From: Flammeovirgaceae bacterium
GTDB taxonomy: Bacteria; Bacteroidota; Bacteroidia; Cytophagales; Cyclobacteriaceae
Direction: 5' to 3'
Length of the DNA stretch: 64,000 nucleotides
NCBI GenBank assembly: GCA_024638265.1
Contig: JAHEKQ010000009.1
Location: 1 to 64,000, forward strand
Positions 17,506-48,693 of the stretch are shown in pieces. Both the position numbers and the translations under genes were made by a program. Within the stretch, counting starts at the first letter, position 1; each line of letters starts with the position of its first letter. A model generated the notes under the pieces. The model searched no databases and was not told the origin of the DNA. It was given only the letters and a program-made list of their open reading frames with translations.

Positions 17506-17643
17506 AATAAAGCCTTTTGATAAAAAATAGTCAAATTCGATTCTAATTTCAAGCGGGCAGTAACAATTAGTTTCCCGAAAAATGAGTGAAAACCATCATT
17601 TAAACCTGTTGATTTCACTGGTAAAAAGCCTGATCTTTGGGTG

Positions 17644-20247
17644 ATGGGGGGAAATGCGAAAAGCAAGAAGGTCACTCCTTTGATGAAGCAGTATAATGCG
17701 ATTAAAGCTAAGCACCCGGGGGCGCTGCTCTTGTTCAGGGTAGGGGATTTTTACGAAACATTCGGTGAAGACGCTATTAAAGCAAGCAGAATACTCGACA
17801 TTGTACTCACTAAAAGGTCAAATGGTTCTGCCTCGGAAGTAGCCCTGGCGGGGTTTCCTCACCATGCGATGGATAGCTATCTCCCCAAACTAGTCAGGGC
17901 GGGCGAAAGAGTTGCTATTTGTGATCAACTCGAAGACCCAAAGGCTGCAAAAGGTATTGTGAAGAGGGGGGTAACGGAGCTTGTGACCCCAGGCTTGTCA
18001 CTCAGCGACCAGGTGCTGGATACCCGAACAAATAACTATCTGGCATCTCTGGCACTGGAAGATGACACTATAGGAATCTCTTTTCTGGATTTGTCAACCG
18101 GAGAATTCCTCGCTGCGGAGGGAGGCATTGAATACATCAGCAAACTGCTCCAGAGTTTTCAACCTTCTGAAGTACTTTACTCAAAATCTGATCGCAAGAA
18201 ATACCATGATATATTTGGGGAAGAGTTTACCTCCTTCCTGATGGAGGACTGGGTTTTTTCGTTTGACTTCGCCTATGAAAAGCTCACCACTCATTTCAAT
18301 ACGTCAAGCCTAAAAGGTTTTGGAGTAGAAGACATGTCATCGGCCATTGTAGCTGCCGGGGCCATTCTTCAATATTTGCAAGAAACGGAACACAGGGATA
18401 ACCACCACATTACCTCCCTTTCCAGGATTGAAGAGGATGAGCATGTATGGTTAGATAAATTTACCATCAGAAACCTCGAATTACTGTTTCCCCAACACGA
18501 AGGGGGTGTACCCCTGGTCGAGATCCTGGATGATACGGTAACTCCCATGGGGAGCAGACTTATGAAGCGGTGGATTGTCTTACCACAAAAACGGGTTGAC
18601 AGGATAAGGGAACGGCTGGAAAAGGTAGAAGCCCTGGTGAAAGACAGCGATTTGACAGACCTGCTGGGGGCGAAGCTAAAAAAGGTAGGAGACCTTGAAA
18701 GACTGATCAGTAAGGTGGCGGTGGGGCGGATCAACCCCAGGGAATTAGTTTCCCTTAAAAATTCACTATCCCAGGTTGAGCCTATTGGAGATCTGTTGAA
18801 TGAATCCCGAAATACCGCACTCTCTGAATTATCAGCGAAAATGCATAATTGTCAGGTACTCCTGGATAAGCTTGAAGCTGAGCTACTGGAAGATGCCCCC
18901 ATGTTGACACACAATGGGGGTATTATCAAGGAGGGTGTTTCTCCAGAGCTTGATGAACTTCGAAAAATAGCTTTTTCAGGAAAGGACAGGTTGCTTGAAA
19001 TTCAGAAGAGGGAAGCTGAGCGTACGGGAATATCGTCTTTGAAGGTAGCTTTCAATAAGGTATTTGGCTATTACCTTGAAGTTAGTAATACACACAGAGA
19101 TAAAGTTCCCGAAGAGTGGATCAGGAAGCAAACTCTTGTCAATGCGGAACGATACATCACGGAGGAGCTCAAGGATTATGAAGAAAAAATATTAAATGCA
19201 GAGGAACGCCTTGTAAGTATTGAGCAGTCCCTATTCAATGATCTGGTCAAGTATTCCAGGAAATATATCCGGGAAATTCAAGAAAATTCGAGGCAATTGG
19301 CTCAGCTTGATTGCTACCTTTCTTTTGCCGGCAGGGCTATCAGGTTCAATTATTGCCTTCCCCAGATTACTGAAGAGTACAGCCTGGATATCCGCGAGGG
19401 AAGACACCCCGTAATAGAAAGACAAATGCCCCCCGGTGAAAAATACGTTCCCAATGACGTATACCTCGACAACGCTGAACAACAAATCATGATCATTACG
19501 GGCCCTAACATGGCAGGTAAATCTGCGCTGTTGCGGCAAACCGCCCTGATTGTGATCATGGCCCAAATGGGGTCATTTGTTCCGGCATCTTCTGCAAAGA
19601 TCGGATGTGTCGACAAGGTATTCACCCGTGTGGGAGCCTCGGACAATCTTTCCAGGGGCGAATCAACGTTCATGGTTGAAATGATCGAAACAGCCAGTAT
19701 ACTTAATAACCTCAGCGGAAGGAGTCTGTTGTTGATGGATGAAATTGGCCGTGGCACAAGTACCTATGATGGAGTAAGTATAGCCTGGGCAATTGTGGAA
19801 TATCTTCAGGGTCATCCCGACAAGCCCAAAACCCTGTTTGCGACACATTACCATGAACTCAATCAGCTGGAGGAAAAGCTGAGCGGAATAAACAATTTCA
19901 ATGTATCCGTTAAGGAGGTACGCGATAAGGTGTTGTTCTTAAGGAAATTGAAAACGGGAGGCAGCGAACACAGTTTTGGAATCCATGTGGCACAGATGGC
20001 AGGAATGCCGAACCCCATCGTAATCAGGGCCAATGAGATCATGCGATTTCTGGAAAAGGACAGGGACACCAGTTCAGAAAAAGTTCGGGATTTGCCGGAG
20101 AATTCATTTCAACTGAATATGTTCGAGGCTGATGACCGATTCAAAGAGCTTATTGGTATCCTTAATGATATTGATATCAATACCATCAGCCCCGTTGAGG
20201 CTTTGCTAAAACTCAACGAGCTCAAGACAAAGTTGTCGGATAAATAG
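17644..20247 (+). CDS. mutS: DNA mismatch repair protein MutS
   Basis: 867 residues from ATG 17644 (a GTG at 17641 is just upstream). The mismatch-recognition Phe-x-Glu is at residues 36-38 (GDFYETF). The ATPase Walker A GPNMAGKS is at residues 620-627, followed by SRGESTFMVEM, the Walker B/D-loop DEIGRGTSTYDG and the ATHYHEL switch. The C-terminus keeps INTISPVEALLKLNELK, the tail that recruits oligomerisation and clamp contacts. It is full length for MutS1 and should start mismatch repair with MutL encoded elsewhere. It ends at the AT-rich DnaA-box region and converges on the ClC gene. Confidence 0.98.
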   Translation: MGGNAKSKKVTPLMKQYNAIKAKHPGALLLFRVGDFYETFGEDAIKASRILDIVLTKRSNGSASEVALAGFPHHAMDSYLPKLVRAGERVAICDQLEDPKAAKGIVKRGVTELVTPGLSLSDQVLDTRTNNYLASLALEDDTIGISFLDLSTGEFLAAEGGIEYISKLLQSFQPSEVLYSKSDRKKYHDIFGEEFTSFLMEDWVFSFDFAYEKLTTHFNTSSLKGFGVEDMSSAIVAAGAILQYLQETEHRDNHHITSLSRIEEDEHVWLDKFTIRNLELLFPQHEGGVPLVEILDDTVTPMGSRLMKRWIVLPQKRVDRIRERLEKVEALVKDSDLTDLLGAKLKKVGDLERLISKVAVGRINPRELVSLKNSLSQVEPIGDLLNESRNTALSELSAKMHNCQVLLDKLEAELLEDAPMLTHNGGIIKEGVSPELDELRKIAFSGKDRLLEIQKREAERTGISSLKVAFNKVFGYYLEVSNTHRDKVPEEWIRKQTLVNAERYITEELKDYEEKILNAEERLVSIEQSLFNDLVKYSRKYIREIQENSRQLAQLDCYLSFAGRAIRFNYCLPQITEEYSLDIREGRHPVIERQMPPGEKYVPNDVYLDNAEQQIMIITGPNMAGKSALLRQTALIVIMAQMGSFVPASSAKIGCVDKVFTRVGASDNLSRGESTFMVEMIETASILNNLSGRSLLLMDEIGRGTSTYDGVSIAWAIVEYLQGHPDKPKTLFATHYHELNQLEEKLSGINNFNVSVKEVRDKVLFLRKLKTGGSEHSFGIHVAQMAGMPNPIVIRANEIMRFLEKDRDTSSEKVRDLPENSFQLNMFEADDRFKELIGILNDIDINTISPVEALLKLNELKTKLSDK

Positions 20248-20736
20248 ACATCCGATAAATCTATTTTGAATTGAGAAAATCAAAATTGTATTATTTCAAG
20301 ATTAATATATTATTTGACTACTACCGTTTTAACGGTTGCTTATGAATTGCCGTATTTACCGGCAGAGTTTTGTTAAGTAAATATTTAATGTATTACCTGA
20401 ATTTTGGACGTTTTCAGCAATTGCCAAATACAAAAATTTGTAAATAAATCCTGAAGTTAAACCTGCCCGGCAAATGGGCCTGAAGTTCAAACAGATCATC
20501 TCGATATTGATTTTTTTAGAATGAAAAAGTCAACAGAAAGTTATCCACAAAATCAAAAAGTTATCCACACACAATTGCCACTTGAGGTAAAATGTTTATT
20601 TACGTCCAAATTTCAAAGAAAATGAAGATTTCAAAATTTGTGGATAATTGTGCTTTTAGAAAAACTTTTGGAAATTCATTAAAATCTTGGCTTTGTGCAA
20701 TTCGGCAGTCAGGGCCTCGTGAGATATGATTCACGA
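20248..20736. other. AT-rich intergenic region between convergent genes, possible replication origin or DnaA-binding site
   Basis: 489 bp without a gene. The left two thirds (20248-20460) is rich in A+T runs such as ATTAATATATTATTTG and AAATATTTAATG. Small hairpins occur: ACCGTT/AACGGT (20323-20336) and TGCCG/CGGCA (20348-20364, followed by TTTTG), which may terminate mutS. The right part has three perfect DnaA boxes (separate entry). An unwinding-like AT-rich stretch next to a box cluster is the usual layout of a bacterial oriC. The direction of the nearby rimP-nusA-infB operon, which would be transcribed toward this site, is not what an origin normally shows, so the origin reading stays tentative. 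Confidence 0.5.
20541..20647. promoter_or_regulatory. Cluster of three perfect DnaA boxes
   Basis: TTATCCACA occurs at 20541-20549 and 20561-20569 on the plus strand, 20 bp (about two helical turns) apart and each preceded by AAAG. Its reverse complement TGTGGATAA occurs at 20639-20647. A given 9-mer is expected about 0.5 times on both strands of 64 kb, so three in 107 bp is not random. The only other perfect copy noticed is at 2364-2372. Confidence 0.75.
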
Positions 20737-22527
20737 TCATTCACTTTGTTGTCGAATCAAATTATGGCGGTAAGTGCTAAAAATGCGCGATTTTGACAAA
20801 AACCCTACATACTTTCCCTCGTCGATTACCGGGAGGTTCCACGCATTGGTCATCTCAAATTTACGCATGACGGATTGCATATTTTCATGAGGGGAGATAA
20901 AGGCTGGAGCGCTGCTCATCACAGATTCAACACGAATATTCTGTTGGGATTCAGGGTCAAACATTATTTCCCTAATCTGATCAAGTGTAACAATTCCCAC
21001 AAATTCACCTTCCTGATTAACTACCGGGAAAAGATTTCTCTTGCTTCTTTTAAATAAGTCGACAAGTTCACCCAACAATGATTCAGGGGTGATTGTCAGG
21101 AGATCCCTTTCAATCAAAGGTTTAAGATCTATTTCATTCAAAACCTGTCGATCCTTGTCATATAGAACCAGGTCACCCCGCTCGATAAGGTTTTTGGTAT
21201 AAAGTGAGTTCTTCTCAAAGAAAGAACTGGTGGAATACGCAATAGCAGAAACCAACATGAGTGGGACAATCAGCTCATATCCGCTGGTGATCTCGGCGAT
21301 GAGAAAAATAGCTGTGAGAGGAGCATGAAGGATTCCACTCATAGCACCACACATTCCCACTAAGGTGAAATTGCTCGGGCTGGCAAGTTCCTGGCCGGAT
21401 ACCTGATTGACGGTTTCAGCAAACACAAAACCTCCAACCCCACCGATAAAAAGCGAGGGGGCGAAAATACCGCCACTTCCCCCAGATCCAATAGTAAGAG
21501 CACTGGCCACCGGCTTGATCAGCATTACACCTGCAAGGAAAAGGATCAACCAGGGTATGTCGGTGGAGAAATCATAGAAAAGACTGGTATTCATCACCTC
21601 TGCTGAACGATTGGCCAGCAAGAGCTTGATGGTGTTATATCCCTCGCCATATATGGGGGGGAAAACAAATATTATTACTCCCAGGAGGATTCCCCCGGTT
21701 ATGATCCTCCCGTACATATTCTTAAGCTTTAAAATACTGCCCTCAATAGCATAGGTAAGACGGGTGAAATAAACGGATATCAAGCCACAGACAATCCCAA
21801 GAAGAAAATAGTATGGAGTATCGGACGCCTTGAACGAATCCTGAATTGAAAAAGAAAATAAAACATCCTGGCCCAACAACAGCAACGAGACCAGGGATCC
21901 ACAGACGGAAGCAATTAATAGCGGCACAAACGAAGAGATTCTGACCTCCACAAGGATAACCTCCAGGCAGAAAATGACACCAGCAATGGGGCTGTTGAAG
22001 ATCGCAGAGATGGCTCCAGCAGCCCCACAGCCAATCATGACATTGCGTTTTCGCTGATCCAGGTGACCGAGAAGTGACACATTGGAACCAATGGCTGATC
22101 CCGTTACCACTATGGGTGCCTCTAACCCCACTGAACCACCAAAGCCGACTGTAATGGCACTGGTCAGCATACGGGTATACATCCGGCTCCTTCGAATAAT
22201 TCCCGATCTTTTGGAGATATCGTACAGAATCTGGGTAATGCCATGGCCCAGGTTCTCTTTAAGTACATAATGTGCAAGAACTGAAGTCAGAAGAATCCCG
22301 ACCAATGGATACCCGAGATAAAGGTAACTTTCGTATTGAATATCAAATCCACGTGTTAGGAAATCCTGTAGGGTATGAACAGAAACTTTCAGGATGACCG
22401 CGGCTAAGCCCGCAAGTAGTCCAATGATACTGCCCAGTATCAACATGAAGTTCCTGTTAGAGATATGCTTTAATCTCCAAATAAGGAACCGGGCTAGCAA
22501 TCGATTGGATTTGTCTTTTTTCGACAT
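20737..22527 (-). CDS. ClC family chloride channel or H+/Cl- transporter with CBS domains
   Basis: 596 residues. The membrane part (about residues 25-440) has the ClC selectivity motifs: ENLGHGITQ near the first helix pair, GFGGSVGLEAPIV as the G(K/R)EGP-like segment, and GSGGSGGIFAPSLFIGG as the GxFxP segment. The C-terminal ~150 residues hold a CBS pair, with VGIVTLDQIREIMFD and VGFLSKSRIFSTYR as the typical strand-helix ends. The usual Glu gate is replaced by Leu-Glu-Ala around residue ~150, so the channel versus exchanger mode is open. A TAATTTTG element (22552-22545, minus strand) lies about 18 bp upstream of the ATG. It converges on mutS. Confidence 0.92.
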   Translation of the reverse strand: MSKKDKSNRLLARFLIWRLKHISNRNFMLILGSIIGLLAGLAAVILKVSVHTLQDFLTRGFDIQYESYLYLGYPLVGILLTSVLAHYVLKENLGHGITQILYDISKRSGIIRRSRMYTRMLTSAITVGFGGSVGLEAPIVVTGSAIGSNVSLLGHLDQRKRNVMIGCGAAGAISAIFNSPIAGVIFCLEVILVEVRISSFVPLLIASVCGSLVSLLLLGQDVLFSFSIQDSFKASDTPYYFLLGIVCGLISVYFTRLTYAIEGSILKLKNMYGRIITGGILLGVIIFVFPPIYGEGYNTIKLLLANRSAEVMNTSLFYDFSTDIPWLILFLAGVMLIKPVASALTIGSGGSGGIFAPSLFIGGVGGFVFAETVNQVSGQELASPSNFTLVGMCGAMSGILHAPLTAIFLIAEITSGYELIVPLMLVSAIAYSTSSFFEKNSLYTKNLIERGDLVLYDKDRQVLNEIDLKPLIERDLLTITPESLLGELVDLFKRSKRNLFPVVNQEGEFVGIVTLDQIREIMFDPESQQNIRVESVMSSAPAFISPHENMQSVMRKFEMTNAWNLPVIDEGKYVGFLSKSRIFSTYRHNLIRQQSE

Positions 22528-22598: not shown

Positions 22599-23543
22599 AT
22601 GATGCAAAACAGGGTATGTGAGCTTTTTAATATAGAATATCCCATTATCCAGGCTGGCATGGTTTGGTGTAGTGGATGGGAGTTGGCTTCTGCAGTCAGT
22701 GAAGCCGGGGGATTAGGAATTATCGGATCGGGATCCATGTATCCTGAGGTACTTGAAGAACACATCTTGAAATGCAAAAAAGCGACTAGCAGGCCATTTG
22801 CGGTGAATGTCCCACTGCTCTATCCGGATATTGAAAAACTCATCGAGGTAATTATCCGAAATCACATCGAAATCGTATTCACTTCTGCCGGCAATCCAAG
22901 GGCCTGGACGACAGTTCTTAAAGAGCAAGATATCAAAGTGGCCCACGTTGTATCCAGTCTGAAATTTGCCAGGAAAGCCGAGGAAGCCGGGGTAGACGCC
23001 ATAGTAGCGGAGGGATTTGAAGCCGGGGGACATAATGGAAGGGAGGAGACGACCACTTTTTGCCTCATTCCCCTGGTCAGTGACAACGTCTCTGTACCGG
23101 TTATCGCCGCCGGTGGAATTTATGGCGGCAGATCTATGTTAGCGGCTTTTGCACTGGGGGCGGAAGCTGTCCAAGTTGGCAGCCGGTTTGCAGTTAGTCA
23201 GGAATCTTCTGCTCACACCGATTACAAAAAACGTGTGGTAGACGCATATGAAGGAGAAACGATTCTTACCATGAAATCGCTTACACCGGTCCGACTCTTG
23301 CGAAATGACTTCTATGAGCAGATACAAGCGGCTGAACGAGAGGGAGCACCCGCTGAAAAGTTGGCTGAAATACTTGGGAAGAGGAGAGCTAAAAAAGGTA
23401 TTTTTGAAGGAGACCTGGTGGAAGGAGAACTTGAAATAGGACAGGTTTCAGCAAGCATAAAACAAATCCAGCCCGCGGGGGAGATTGTCAGGGAGATTTG
23501 GGAAGAGTTTCAACAATTCAAGGCGAAGTTAGTTGAAATGTAG
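22599..23543 (+). CDS. Nitronate monooxygenase-like flavoprotein (2-nitropropane dioxygenase family)
   Basis: 314 residues forming an FMN TIM barrel of the NMO/FabK type. Visible motifs are YPIIQAGMVW at the start, EAGGLGIIGSGS, VVAEG-type FEAGGHNGREE, PVIAAGGIYGGRSM and the phosphate-binding GAEAVQVGSRF. These bind FMN and the substrate; the family oxidises nitronates or, in FabK branches, reduces enoyl-ACP. The GGHNG (rather than GGHxG plus a longer loop) does not settle which. The esterase gene follows with no gap (stop 23543, ATG 23544). Two ATGs (22599 and 22602) are possible starts. Confidence 0.88.
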   Translation: MMQNRVCELFNIEYPIIQAGMVWCSGWELASAVSEAGGLGIIGSGSMYPEVLEEHILKCKKATSRPFAVNVPLLYPDIEKLIEVIIRNHIEIVFTSAGNPRAWTTVLKEQDIKVAHVVSSLKFARKAEEAGVDAIVAEGFEAGGHNGREETTTFCLIPLVSDNVSVPVIAAGGIYGGRSMLAAFALGAEAVQVGSRFAVSQESSAHTDYKKRVVDAYEGETILTMKSLTPVRLLRNDFYEQIQAAEREGAPAEKLAEILGKRRAKKGIFEGDLVEGELEIGQVSASIKQIQPAGEIVREIWEEFQQFKAKLVEM

Positions 23544-47733: not shown

Positions 47734-48284
47734 TATCTCCTTGGTACGGCGATCCTGTAGTCCGTTTTAACTTTTCCCTTACTGATATTAGTGAGTTTTC
47801 CCTTCAATAGCCTTTTCTTAAAAGGGGTAAGCCGGTCTGTGAATAAAATGCCCTCAATGTGATCGTACTCATGCTGGATGATCCGGGCTTTGATACCGTC
47901 AAAACTCTCTTCGTGCTCCTCCCAGTTTTCATCAAAATATCGGATGGTCAGCTCCTCCGGCCTTTCAATATCTTCCCGGATATGAGGGATACTGAGACAA
48001 CCCTCTTCATAGACGAAAGGATTCCCCTCCTCCGTAACAACCCTGGGATTGATAAATACTTTTTTGAAATCCATGAGCTCCTCTTCCTCAAGGGGGGCAC
48101 CGTCAATAACGAACATCCTGATGCTTTTCCCAATTTGAGGGGCGGCAAGCCCTACCCCTGAAGCCCCGTACATGGTTTCAAACATGTCTTCGGCAAGGGC
48201 TTTAACATCTATGCTCCCCTTTTCAATGTCTACTGCTTTTTTCTTAAGCACTGGGTCGCCATATACGACAATCGGATATACCAT
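47733..48284 (-). CDS. def: Peptide deformylase
   Basis: 183 residues. Motif 1 GVGLAAPQ is at 43-50, motif 2 EEGCLSIP holds metal ligand Cys96, and motif 3 QHEYDHIEG holds His138, Glu139 and His142. It removes the formyl group from new proteins. The N-terminal region VYPIVVYGDPVLKKK is normal. It is the third gene of the minus-strand run after ruvX (1-bp gap). Confidence 0.97.
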   Translation of the reverse strand: MVYPIVVYGDPVLKKKAVDIEKGSIDVKALAEDMFETMYGASGVGLAAPQIGKSIRMFVIDGAPLEEEELMDFKKVFINPRVVTEEGNPFVYEEGCLSIPHIREDIERPEELTIRYFDENWEEHEESFDGIKARIIQHEYDHIEGILFTDRLTPFKKRLLKGKLTNISKGKVKTDYRIAVPRR

Positions 48285-48285
48285 A

Positions 48286-48693
48286 TCAAATACCTAAATA
48301 CGACTGCAAAATTAGGGATGCGCTGATTTTATCCACAAGTTTTTTGTCCCTTCTCTTCTTTTTTCCCAGTCCGCTACCGGAAATGGCTTGTCGGGCAATC
48401 TTGCTGGTAAATCTTTCATCCCATTTTATAACCTCTAATCGTGGAAATTTGGTTTCAAGAGTTTTAATAAATTTTGATACATGCACTGTTGCATCAGTGT
48501 CTCTTTGATACAGGTCGGTGGGCCAACCCACCACTACTTTGTCTACCGATTCACGCGATAAGTATTCCGATAAAAAATCAAACACTTGTTGTGTCGATAC
48601 GGTTTCCAGGGGGGAGCAGATGATCTGAAGCGGGTCTGTAACGGCGATTCCCGTTCTCTTTAAGCCATAATCCATGGCCAGAATTCTCCCCAC
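48286..48693 (-). CDS. ruvX: Putative pre-16S rRNA nuclease / Holliday junction resolvase-like RuvX (YqgF)
   Basis: 135 residues from a GTG start. RNase H-like fold with the catalytic Asp in LAMDYGLKRTG, the VVGWPTDL strand, KWDERFTSKIA and the C-terminal acidic DKISASLIL. YqgF proteins process pre-16S rRNA ends. One base separates it from the upstream ScdA-like gene. Confidence 0.93.
   Translation of the reverse strand: MGRILAMDYGLKRTGIAVTDPLQIICSPLETVSTQQVFDFLSEYLSRESVDKVVVGWPTDLYQRDTDATVHVSKFIKTLETKFPRLEVIKWDERFTSKIARQAISGSGLGKKKRRDKKLVDKISASLILQSYLGI

Follow-up and report, generated by a model that had tools for sequence, protein, structure and literature searches.

The module of three DnaA boxes that lies between mutS and a ClC-type chloride channel gene in the window (the whole stretch of 64,000 nucleotides that was analysed) is probably an origin-proximal DnaA control element. 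As judged from sequence comparisons, it would work like the E. coli loci datA or DARS and would be built on an IHF-like protein; the clade of the window appears to keep only the DnaA part. The features discussed below are listed in Table 1.

Table 1. Location of the module, its parts and its neighbours; positions without a locus name refer to the window.
Feature	Position	Strand	Remark
mutS	17641..20247	+	left neighbour in the window; adjoins 1 of 107 modules (the window's own)
A-rich arm to the left of box 1, easily melted	20491..20540	+	weakly conserved in relatives
Module, 107 bp	20541..20647	+	fixed geometry; single copy per genome that carries one
DnaA box 1, TTATCCACA	20541..20549	+	exact match; layout common to 93 of 390 family genomes
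DnaA box 2, TTATCCACA	20561..20569	+	20 bp after box 1, co-directional
Place of the central palindrome, decayed in the window	20587..20615	+	scores -11.7 in place and, at best, -9.7 within 6 bp
DnaA box 3, TTATCCACA	20639..20647	-	inverted; its start is 78 bp from that of box 2
ClC-type chloride channel gene with CBS domains	20737..22527	-	right neighbour; adjoins 71 of 107 modules
Gene taken by us to be nitronate monooxygenase-like	22599..23543	+	follows the ClC gene in the window
Boxes in the dnaB gap, window's genome	L289:8627-8708 (G000 contig C51)
Boxes in the dnaB gap, G106	L293:8213-8294 (G106)

The initial annotation had pointed out three perfect DnaA boxes in an AT-rich gap between convergent genes, and this description was borne out. 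The exact sequence TTATCCACA occurs five times in the window, where 0.64 copies are expected, and none of 100 dinucleotide shuffles contained five or more. In the genome of the window (G000; 3.63 Mb on 173 contigs), 50 exact copies were counted versus 23 for the reversed control. The module is the only triple among these 50 copies, and the rough expected number of triples within 107 bp is 1.4e-4 for the whole genome; the boxes are far beyond chance. The convergent gap comprises 489 bp and has an AT content of 69%, compared to 55% for the window. The AT-rich stretches noted beside the boxes are equally real: the duplex stability of 50-bp segments at 20520, 20540, 20610, 20620 and 20660 is among the weakest 2% of the window, and that at 20580 and 20600 merely among the weakest 9%. 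An easily melted stretch of this kind is present in the mean of 97 modules as well as in the window itself. Further exact or near-exact DnaA boxes form loose pairs at 2283-2372 and 47838-48337 of the window, and a facing pair of exact boxes, 47 bp apart, is located in a gap on contig C38 of the same genome (L290:6689-6744).

In the gap beside the ClC gene of relatives, boxes 1 and 2 are again co-directional and 20 bp apart, and box 3 follows in inverted orientation 78 bp on. The box letters vary between genomes; the spacing is constant. Expressed as the strict pattern TTNTCCACA, 11 N, TTNTCCACA, 69 N, TGTNGANAA, the module was found in 93 of 390 genomes of the family, which represent 40 of 84 genera, and once in each of them; the remaining 297 genomes do not contain the strict pattern, and reversed controls gave no hit. 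Genus g82, which makes up a large share of the family draw, has no strict pattern, and genus g17 has two. In a class-wide draw of 395 genomes, the pattern occurred in three, all of which belong to the nine family members drawn; none of the 386 genomes from outside the family but of the same class contained it. Among 30 genomes whose ClC loci were examined, 25 carry the strict module. The locus of G007 is interrupted by a contig end, G098 and G026 possess the ClC gene without a module, and a relaxed layout was recognized by eye in G054 and G115, the spacing in G054 being 77 instead of 78 bp. The boxes are thus conserved in relatives, contrary to the absence that the initial annotation had named as a refutation. 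In the modules of G088, G106, G114, G053 and G075, TTTTCCACA is the sequence of boxes 1 and 2 alike, and in G088 also of box 3, as if the boxes were drifting together.

A scan of GTDB species yielded 100 stretches. The titles known for 80 of them are mostly those of Cyclobacteriaceae, Flammeovirgaceae, Cytophagales, Fulvivirga, Roseivirga and Marivirga; the others listed include four of Lewinella type and one each of Ruminococcus, Clostridia and Calditrichia. Loci L150 and L163, titled Ruminococcus and Clostridia, are box-rich, but lack the palindrome described below. The loci titled Lewinella or Neolewinella among the 80 are L157, L160, L161 and L199. L157 and L199 were inspected, and the letters of L221 resemble them. 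A wider reach of the module by way of L157, L199 and L221 was discarded, and the three were taken as box-rich regions of another kind. The right-hand frames printed for L157 and L199 look like antisense readings. The box-rich stretch L221:2443-2549 is located upstream of a gene that is presumably similar to that of the ribonucleotide reductase small subunit; it may represent an nrd promoter under the control of DnaA, outside the family.

A letter profile was compiled from the 105 of 107 distinct modules that have full flanks; a few non-family hits are included. Its centre consists of YATAA (module positions 47-51), CTGATNATCAG (56-66) and TTATR (71-75), which add up to the palindrome YATAA-N4-CTGATNATCAG-N4-TTATR centred on position 61. 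In the relatives, a symmetric double IHF consensus, arranged back to back, is thus present in the 69 bp from box 2 to the facing box 3: the consensus WATCAAnnnnTTR, given in the accessible text of PMC10380432, lines up with positions 61-73, and its mirror image with positions 49-61. With R allowed for the sixth base, the best one-sided match in 74 genomes that possess a DNABII gene is exact in 42 cases, and has one mismatch in 26, two in five and four (shifted) in one. In three members of the window's clade, the numbers of mismatches are 2, 3 and 3. The strict palindrome was found at 24 places in seven of twelve genomes (reversed control, 0). Since only one of these places is a module, namely that of G075, the palindrome seems to be used elsewhere too. 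The symmetry within individual sequences, evaluated for 102 of 107 modules, peaked at centre 61 with z 4.1, to which off-register sequences contributed in part; the next best centre had 2.9. A hairpin or cruciform was rejected, and the site of a protein dimer is preferred, because this symmetry exceeds that of shuffled sequences only modestly. No trinucleotide repeats beside a DnaA box, as in the DnaA-trio of BUS, were evident by eye in the letters of the module.

A search of 80 genomes with the HU/IHF profile PF00216 identified a DNABII gene in 76 of them. A match was absent from the genome of the window and from G051, G088 and G007, whose ClC proteins are closest to that of the window (71-74% identity; at most 68% for the others listed). 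As the completeness of these four drafts is 97.6, 96, 82 and 83%, a shared loss is likelier than four assembly gaps; the four genomes may hold a strongly altered DNABII protein instead. The comparison of palindrome and DNABII gene covered 77 of the 93 module genomes. The palindrome is kept with a score of at least 11 in all 74 module genomes with DNABII, in G069 only after a shift by a few bases; the median score is 20.6, and 99.9% of shuffled cores stay below 6.1. In all three module genomes without DNABII the palindrome is decayed, with scores of -11.7, -8.1 and -2.9 (best within 6 bp: -9.7, -8.1 and -1.0), which are somewhat lowered by the exclusion of these modules from the scoring matrix. 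The association corresponds to a Mann-Whitney p of 1e-4, a value that ignores that the three losses are those of one clade; the loss of DNABII and the decay of the palindrome are probably one evolutionary event. Contrary cases are G115 and G022, which have the DNABII gene and not a single strict palindrome genome-wide. In the clade of the window, the boxes and their spacing are intact in all three modules devoid of palindrome and DNABII, which suggests that DnaA binding alone still matters there.

The DNABII protein of G106 scored 62.9 bits with the family model of IHF-beta, 55.8 with that of IHF-alpha and 36.4 with that of HU, all below the NCBIfam cut-offs. Among solved structures, its best match was a chain named integration host factor, followed by HU chains. 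Exactly one PF00216 match was found in 63 of the 76 genomes with DNABII, and such a single copy would suit a homodimer and a symmetric site.

The genome of the window is too fragmented for an analysis of GC skew, and five single-contig relatives (G106, G140, G115, G035 and G119) were used to locate the start of replication. The skew was corrected for gene orientation and sampled in 20 stretches of 20 kb per genome, five bins that consist mostly of N being dropped; in addition, 400 kb of G106 were mapped densely. Summed over the five relatives, the address at gidA/mnmG is 6.6 ln units of likelihood below the best fit, the module 21.5 and dnaA 80.6. An origin at dnaA was rejected, as this gene is 8.4 to 25.5 units below the best in five of five genomes; a 3.2-kb piece around the dnaA end of the window's genome contained no exact or listed variant box. 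The coarse maps of G106, G140 and G115 hardly separate the module from gidA (0.06 and 0.84, 1.36 and 0.77, and 0.91 and 0.85 units below the best, respectively), that of G106 slightly favouring the module. The respective values are 13.1 and 1.3 for G035 and 6.1 and 2.9 for G119. In the dense map of G106, the module is 20.5, gidA 0.5 and dnaA 19.0 units below the best, so that this map alone does not rank module versus dnaA; its corrected cumulative minimum is near 706 kb (raw, 721 kb), and the module is at 559 kb. The verdict from skew is due to G035, G119 and the densely mapped stretch of G106, since the other maps do not discriminate. The coarse best-fit switch is at 538 kb in G106, 420 kb in G119, 2000 kb in G140, 1443 kb in G115 and 1174 kb in G035, and gidA/mnmG occupies 716-718, 451-453, 1993-1995, 1296-1298 and 841-843 kb of these genomes, respectively; in G035 the two are about 330 kb apart.

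For G140, G115 and G035 the address was placed a few kb from gidA, and in G106 and G119 the gap itself was read. It is syntenic, located between the genes of an Ig-like lipoprotein and a TPR protein, close to the fitted switch in both genomes, and its AT content is 75% in G106 and 73% in G119. When any single mismatch is allowed, six boxes are clustered within 400 bp in either genome, compared to an overall number of only eight such boxes in a 20-kb piece of G106 and twelve in one of 16 kb from G119. In G106 the gap contains five of the six, in G119 only three or four, the rest extending into the neighbouring frame. In G119 this second box cluster spans 455.6-456.1 kb, 3 kb downstream of gidA/mnmG. 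A weaker copy of the palindrome (score 18.9, eighth in 832 kb) is found in the gap of G106; none of the eight best copies of G119 lies in the corresponding gap. The true oriC of the family is likely this AT-rich gap with its box cluster about 3 kb from gidA/mnmG, i.e. L246:14198-14561 in G106 and L294:7628-7945 in G119.

Module and gidA share a contig in 31 of 44 module genomes (24 of 33 in one set and 7 of 11 in the other) and in G115 with its relaxed copy. They are 40 to 554 kb apart, a range that is biased downwards by short contigs. On contigs with a known length above 3 Mb (G106, G119, G140, G035, G012, G034, G571, G638, G621 and, with the relaxed copy, G115), the module is 90-352 kb from gidA in ten of ten cases, gidA serving as a stand-in for oriC. 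In single-contig genomes without a strict module, the distance from the ClC gene to gidA is 126 kb (G046), 260 kb (G027), 616 kb (G123) and about 3.2 Mb (G090). The module may owe its nearness to the origin to the ClC neighbourhood.

These data allow the alternatives to be weighed. That the module is the chromosomal origin itself, with AT-rich stretches unwinding between inward-facing boxes, is unlikely. Like a bacterial oriC, it combines DnaA boxes and AT-rich DNA, the duplex is weak within and left of it, it is conserved, and a joint profile of the five genomes leaves it just 1.1 ln units short of the best common offset. Unlike in the case of an oriC, the skew switch fits another address better: the module is 6.1 to 20.5 ln units below the best in the three discriminating maps, and the syntenic gap near gidA offers a rival box cluster near the fitted switch in G106 and G119. 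On the evidence of the densely mapped skew of G106 and the gidA-linked cluster of G119, the module was rejected as oriC; it is probably not oriC itself. Of the two roles proposed in the initial annotation, candidate origin or DnaA-titrating site, the first is thus not supported, the skew fitting better elsewhere, and the second, as DnaA control or titration, is supported. The conserved IHF-type site at the centre, lost in the window, was not visible from the window itself. A skew minimum far from the locus, named there as evidence against an origin, was seen in part, since the switch of the relatives is near the module and the gidA-linked address fits better. The doubt raised there on account of the minus-strand direction of rimP-nusA-infB agrees with this outcome. 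Plain titration, with boxes that merely hold DnaA and an incidental palindrome, would account for the three modules of the window's clade that keep boxes and spacing in the absence of palindrome and DNABII; it is nevertheless quite improbable, because titration needs neither the fixed spacing of 20 and 78 bp nor a palindrome between the boxes that all 74 genomes with DNABII retain. A role of the module in regulating mutS or the ClC gene, or as a terminator of either, is most improbable; its location in the gap that these two genes share in the window might speak for it. The module is downstream of both genes, and the neighbour counts of Table 1, which refer to 107 distinct modules and include some incomplete loci among the 36 without ClC, show that mutS is an exception and that ClC is a frequent but not a constant neighbour. 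Among eight ClC-less loci inspected by eye, L137, L145 and L206 encode a protein like the product of 22599..23543 directly right of the module, which indicates that the module persists where ClC is gone; in L134 and L191 other genes flank it, and the remaining three are Lewinella-like. Five of the eight thus have other neighbours with the palindrome present.

The preferred reading as a DnaA control element can be compared with loci of known function. According to the accessible parts of PMC10950094, PMC5742627, PMC10380432 and PMC4585315, E. coli datA depends on DnaA boxes 2, 3 and 7 together with an IHF site at a set distance; the IHF-induced bend is thought to join DnaA on boxes 2 and 3 such that DnaA-bound ATP is hydrolysed, and datA, being near oriC, is doubled early. 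Like datA with its DDAH function, the module is a non-coding cluster of DnaA boxes near but outside oriC (with gidA as stand-in), and a putative IHF site between boxes at fixed spacing is seen in 74 of 74 DNABII relatives, albeit not in the window. Unlike datA, whose minimal version has 183 bp, the module has 107 bp and a symmetric double IHF consensus, and it belongs to another phylum; the likeness described here is one of layout. It was not classed as datA, since its box 3 is inverted and the essential boxes of datA share one direction, as stated in the accessible text of PMC5742627. Origin-external clusters of DnaA boxes are reported to restrain initiation in Bacillus subtilis and Streptomyces coelicolor, as cited in the portions available of PMC10950094 and PMC5742627; in contrast to these, the module has an IHF-type site at strict spacing.

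With E. coli DARS1 and DARS2, as far as the sources available in part describe them, the module shares a core of three DnaA boxes; its facing boxes 2 and 3 are a possible counterpart of the facing pair of DARS. DARS sites are located farther from oriC than the module. If the bend joined the facing boxes 2 and 3 such that ADP is released and DnaA is re-activated, the module would act like DARS; this is one direction of the preferred reading, its chances being part of those given to that reading, and taken by itself it is rather unlikely. The three boxes with a facing pair argue for it; DARS of E. coli cannot work without a head-to-head pair, and IHF is involved in DARS2 (PMC10380432, accessible text). 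Against it stand the 69 bp that separate the facing boxes, with a bend site between them, and the nearness to the origin, which is more like datA. The module was not classed as DARS, because the facing pair of DARS was compared by description and not by sequence.

For the DnaA control element preferred here, the following mechanism is conceivable. The IHF-like DNABII protein of the family would bind the central palindrome as a homodimer and bend the DNA, so that DnaA on boxes 1 and 2 would meet DnaA on box 3. The resulting complex might change the nucleotide state of DnaA or hold DnaA away from oriC. Because the module is near oriC, it would be doubled soon after initiation and could damp re-initiation. 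In the clade of the window, the DNABII gene would have been lost and the bend site would have decayed, leaving a DnaA-binding site of three boxes.

A separate arrangement was noticed where a Mur-ligase gene and dnaB diverge (Table 1): in the gap between them, two DnaA boxes 73 bp apart enclose TTATCAACA in both G000 and G106. A conserved DnaA-controlled promoter of dnaB, which encodes the replicative helicase, is possible.

To our knowledge, the only DnaA control loci that are known to contain an IHF site are those of proteobacteria. DARS-like sequences occur in many of these, according to the accessible text of PMC10380432. In the literature on the oriC of Bacteroidetes, Cytophagales and Flavobacterium, on datA and DARS2, on DnaA-box clusters and HU/IHF-like proteins of Bacteroidetes, and on DoriC in connection with Bacteroidota, as far as its texts were accessible and with most subscription journals outside the scope, neither such an element nor a gidA-linked oriC address was found to be described; the accessible portions of PMC8287927 and PMC10225481 do not name Bacteroidetes. 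Predictions by DoriC or Ori-Finder may exist for these genomes; some DoriC calls are wrong, as reported in the available part of PMC13342612.

On balance, if narrowly, we favour the view that Bacteroidota own an IHF-type DnaA switch near the origin that resembles datA or DARS and relies on an IHF-like protein acting as a homodimer at a symmetric site, and that the lineage of the window is a natural HU/IHF-null in which the IHF part alone has decayed and the three boxes and their spacing were kept. The gidA-linked address is suggested as a likely oriC for the family, and the joint loss of DNABII and its site would be a ready-made test of which part needs the bend. If true, the presence of a counterpart with fixed geometry in Bacteroidota would imply that control sites of this kind are far wider spread, or that they were re-invented.
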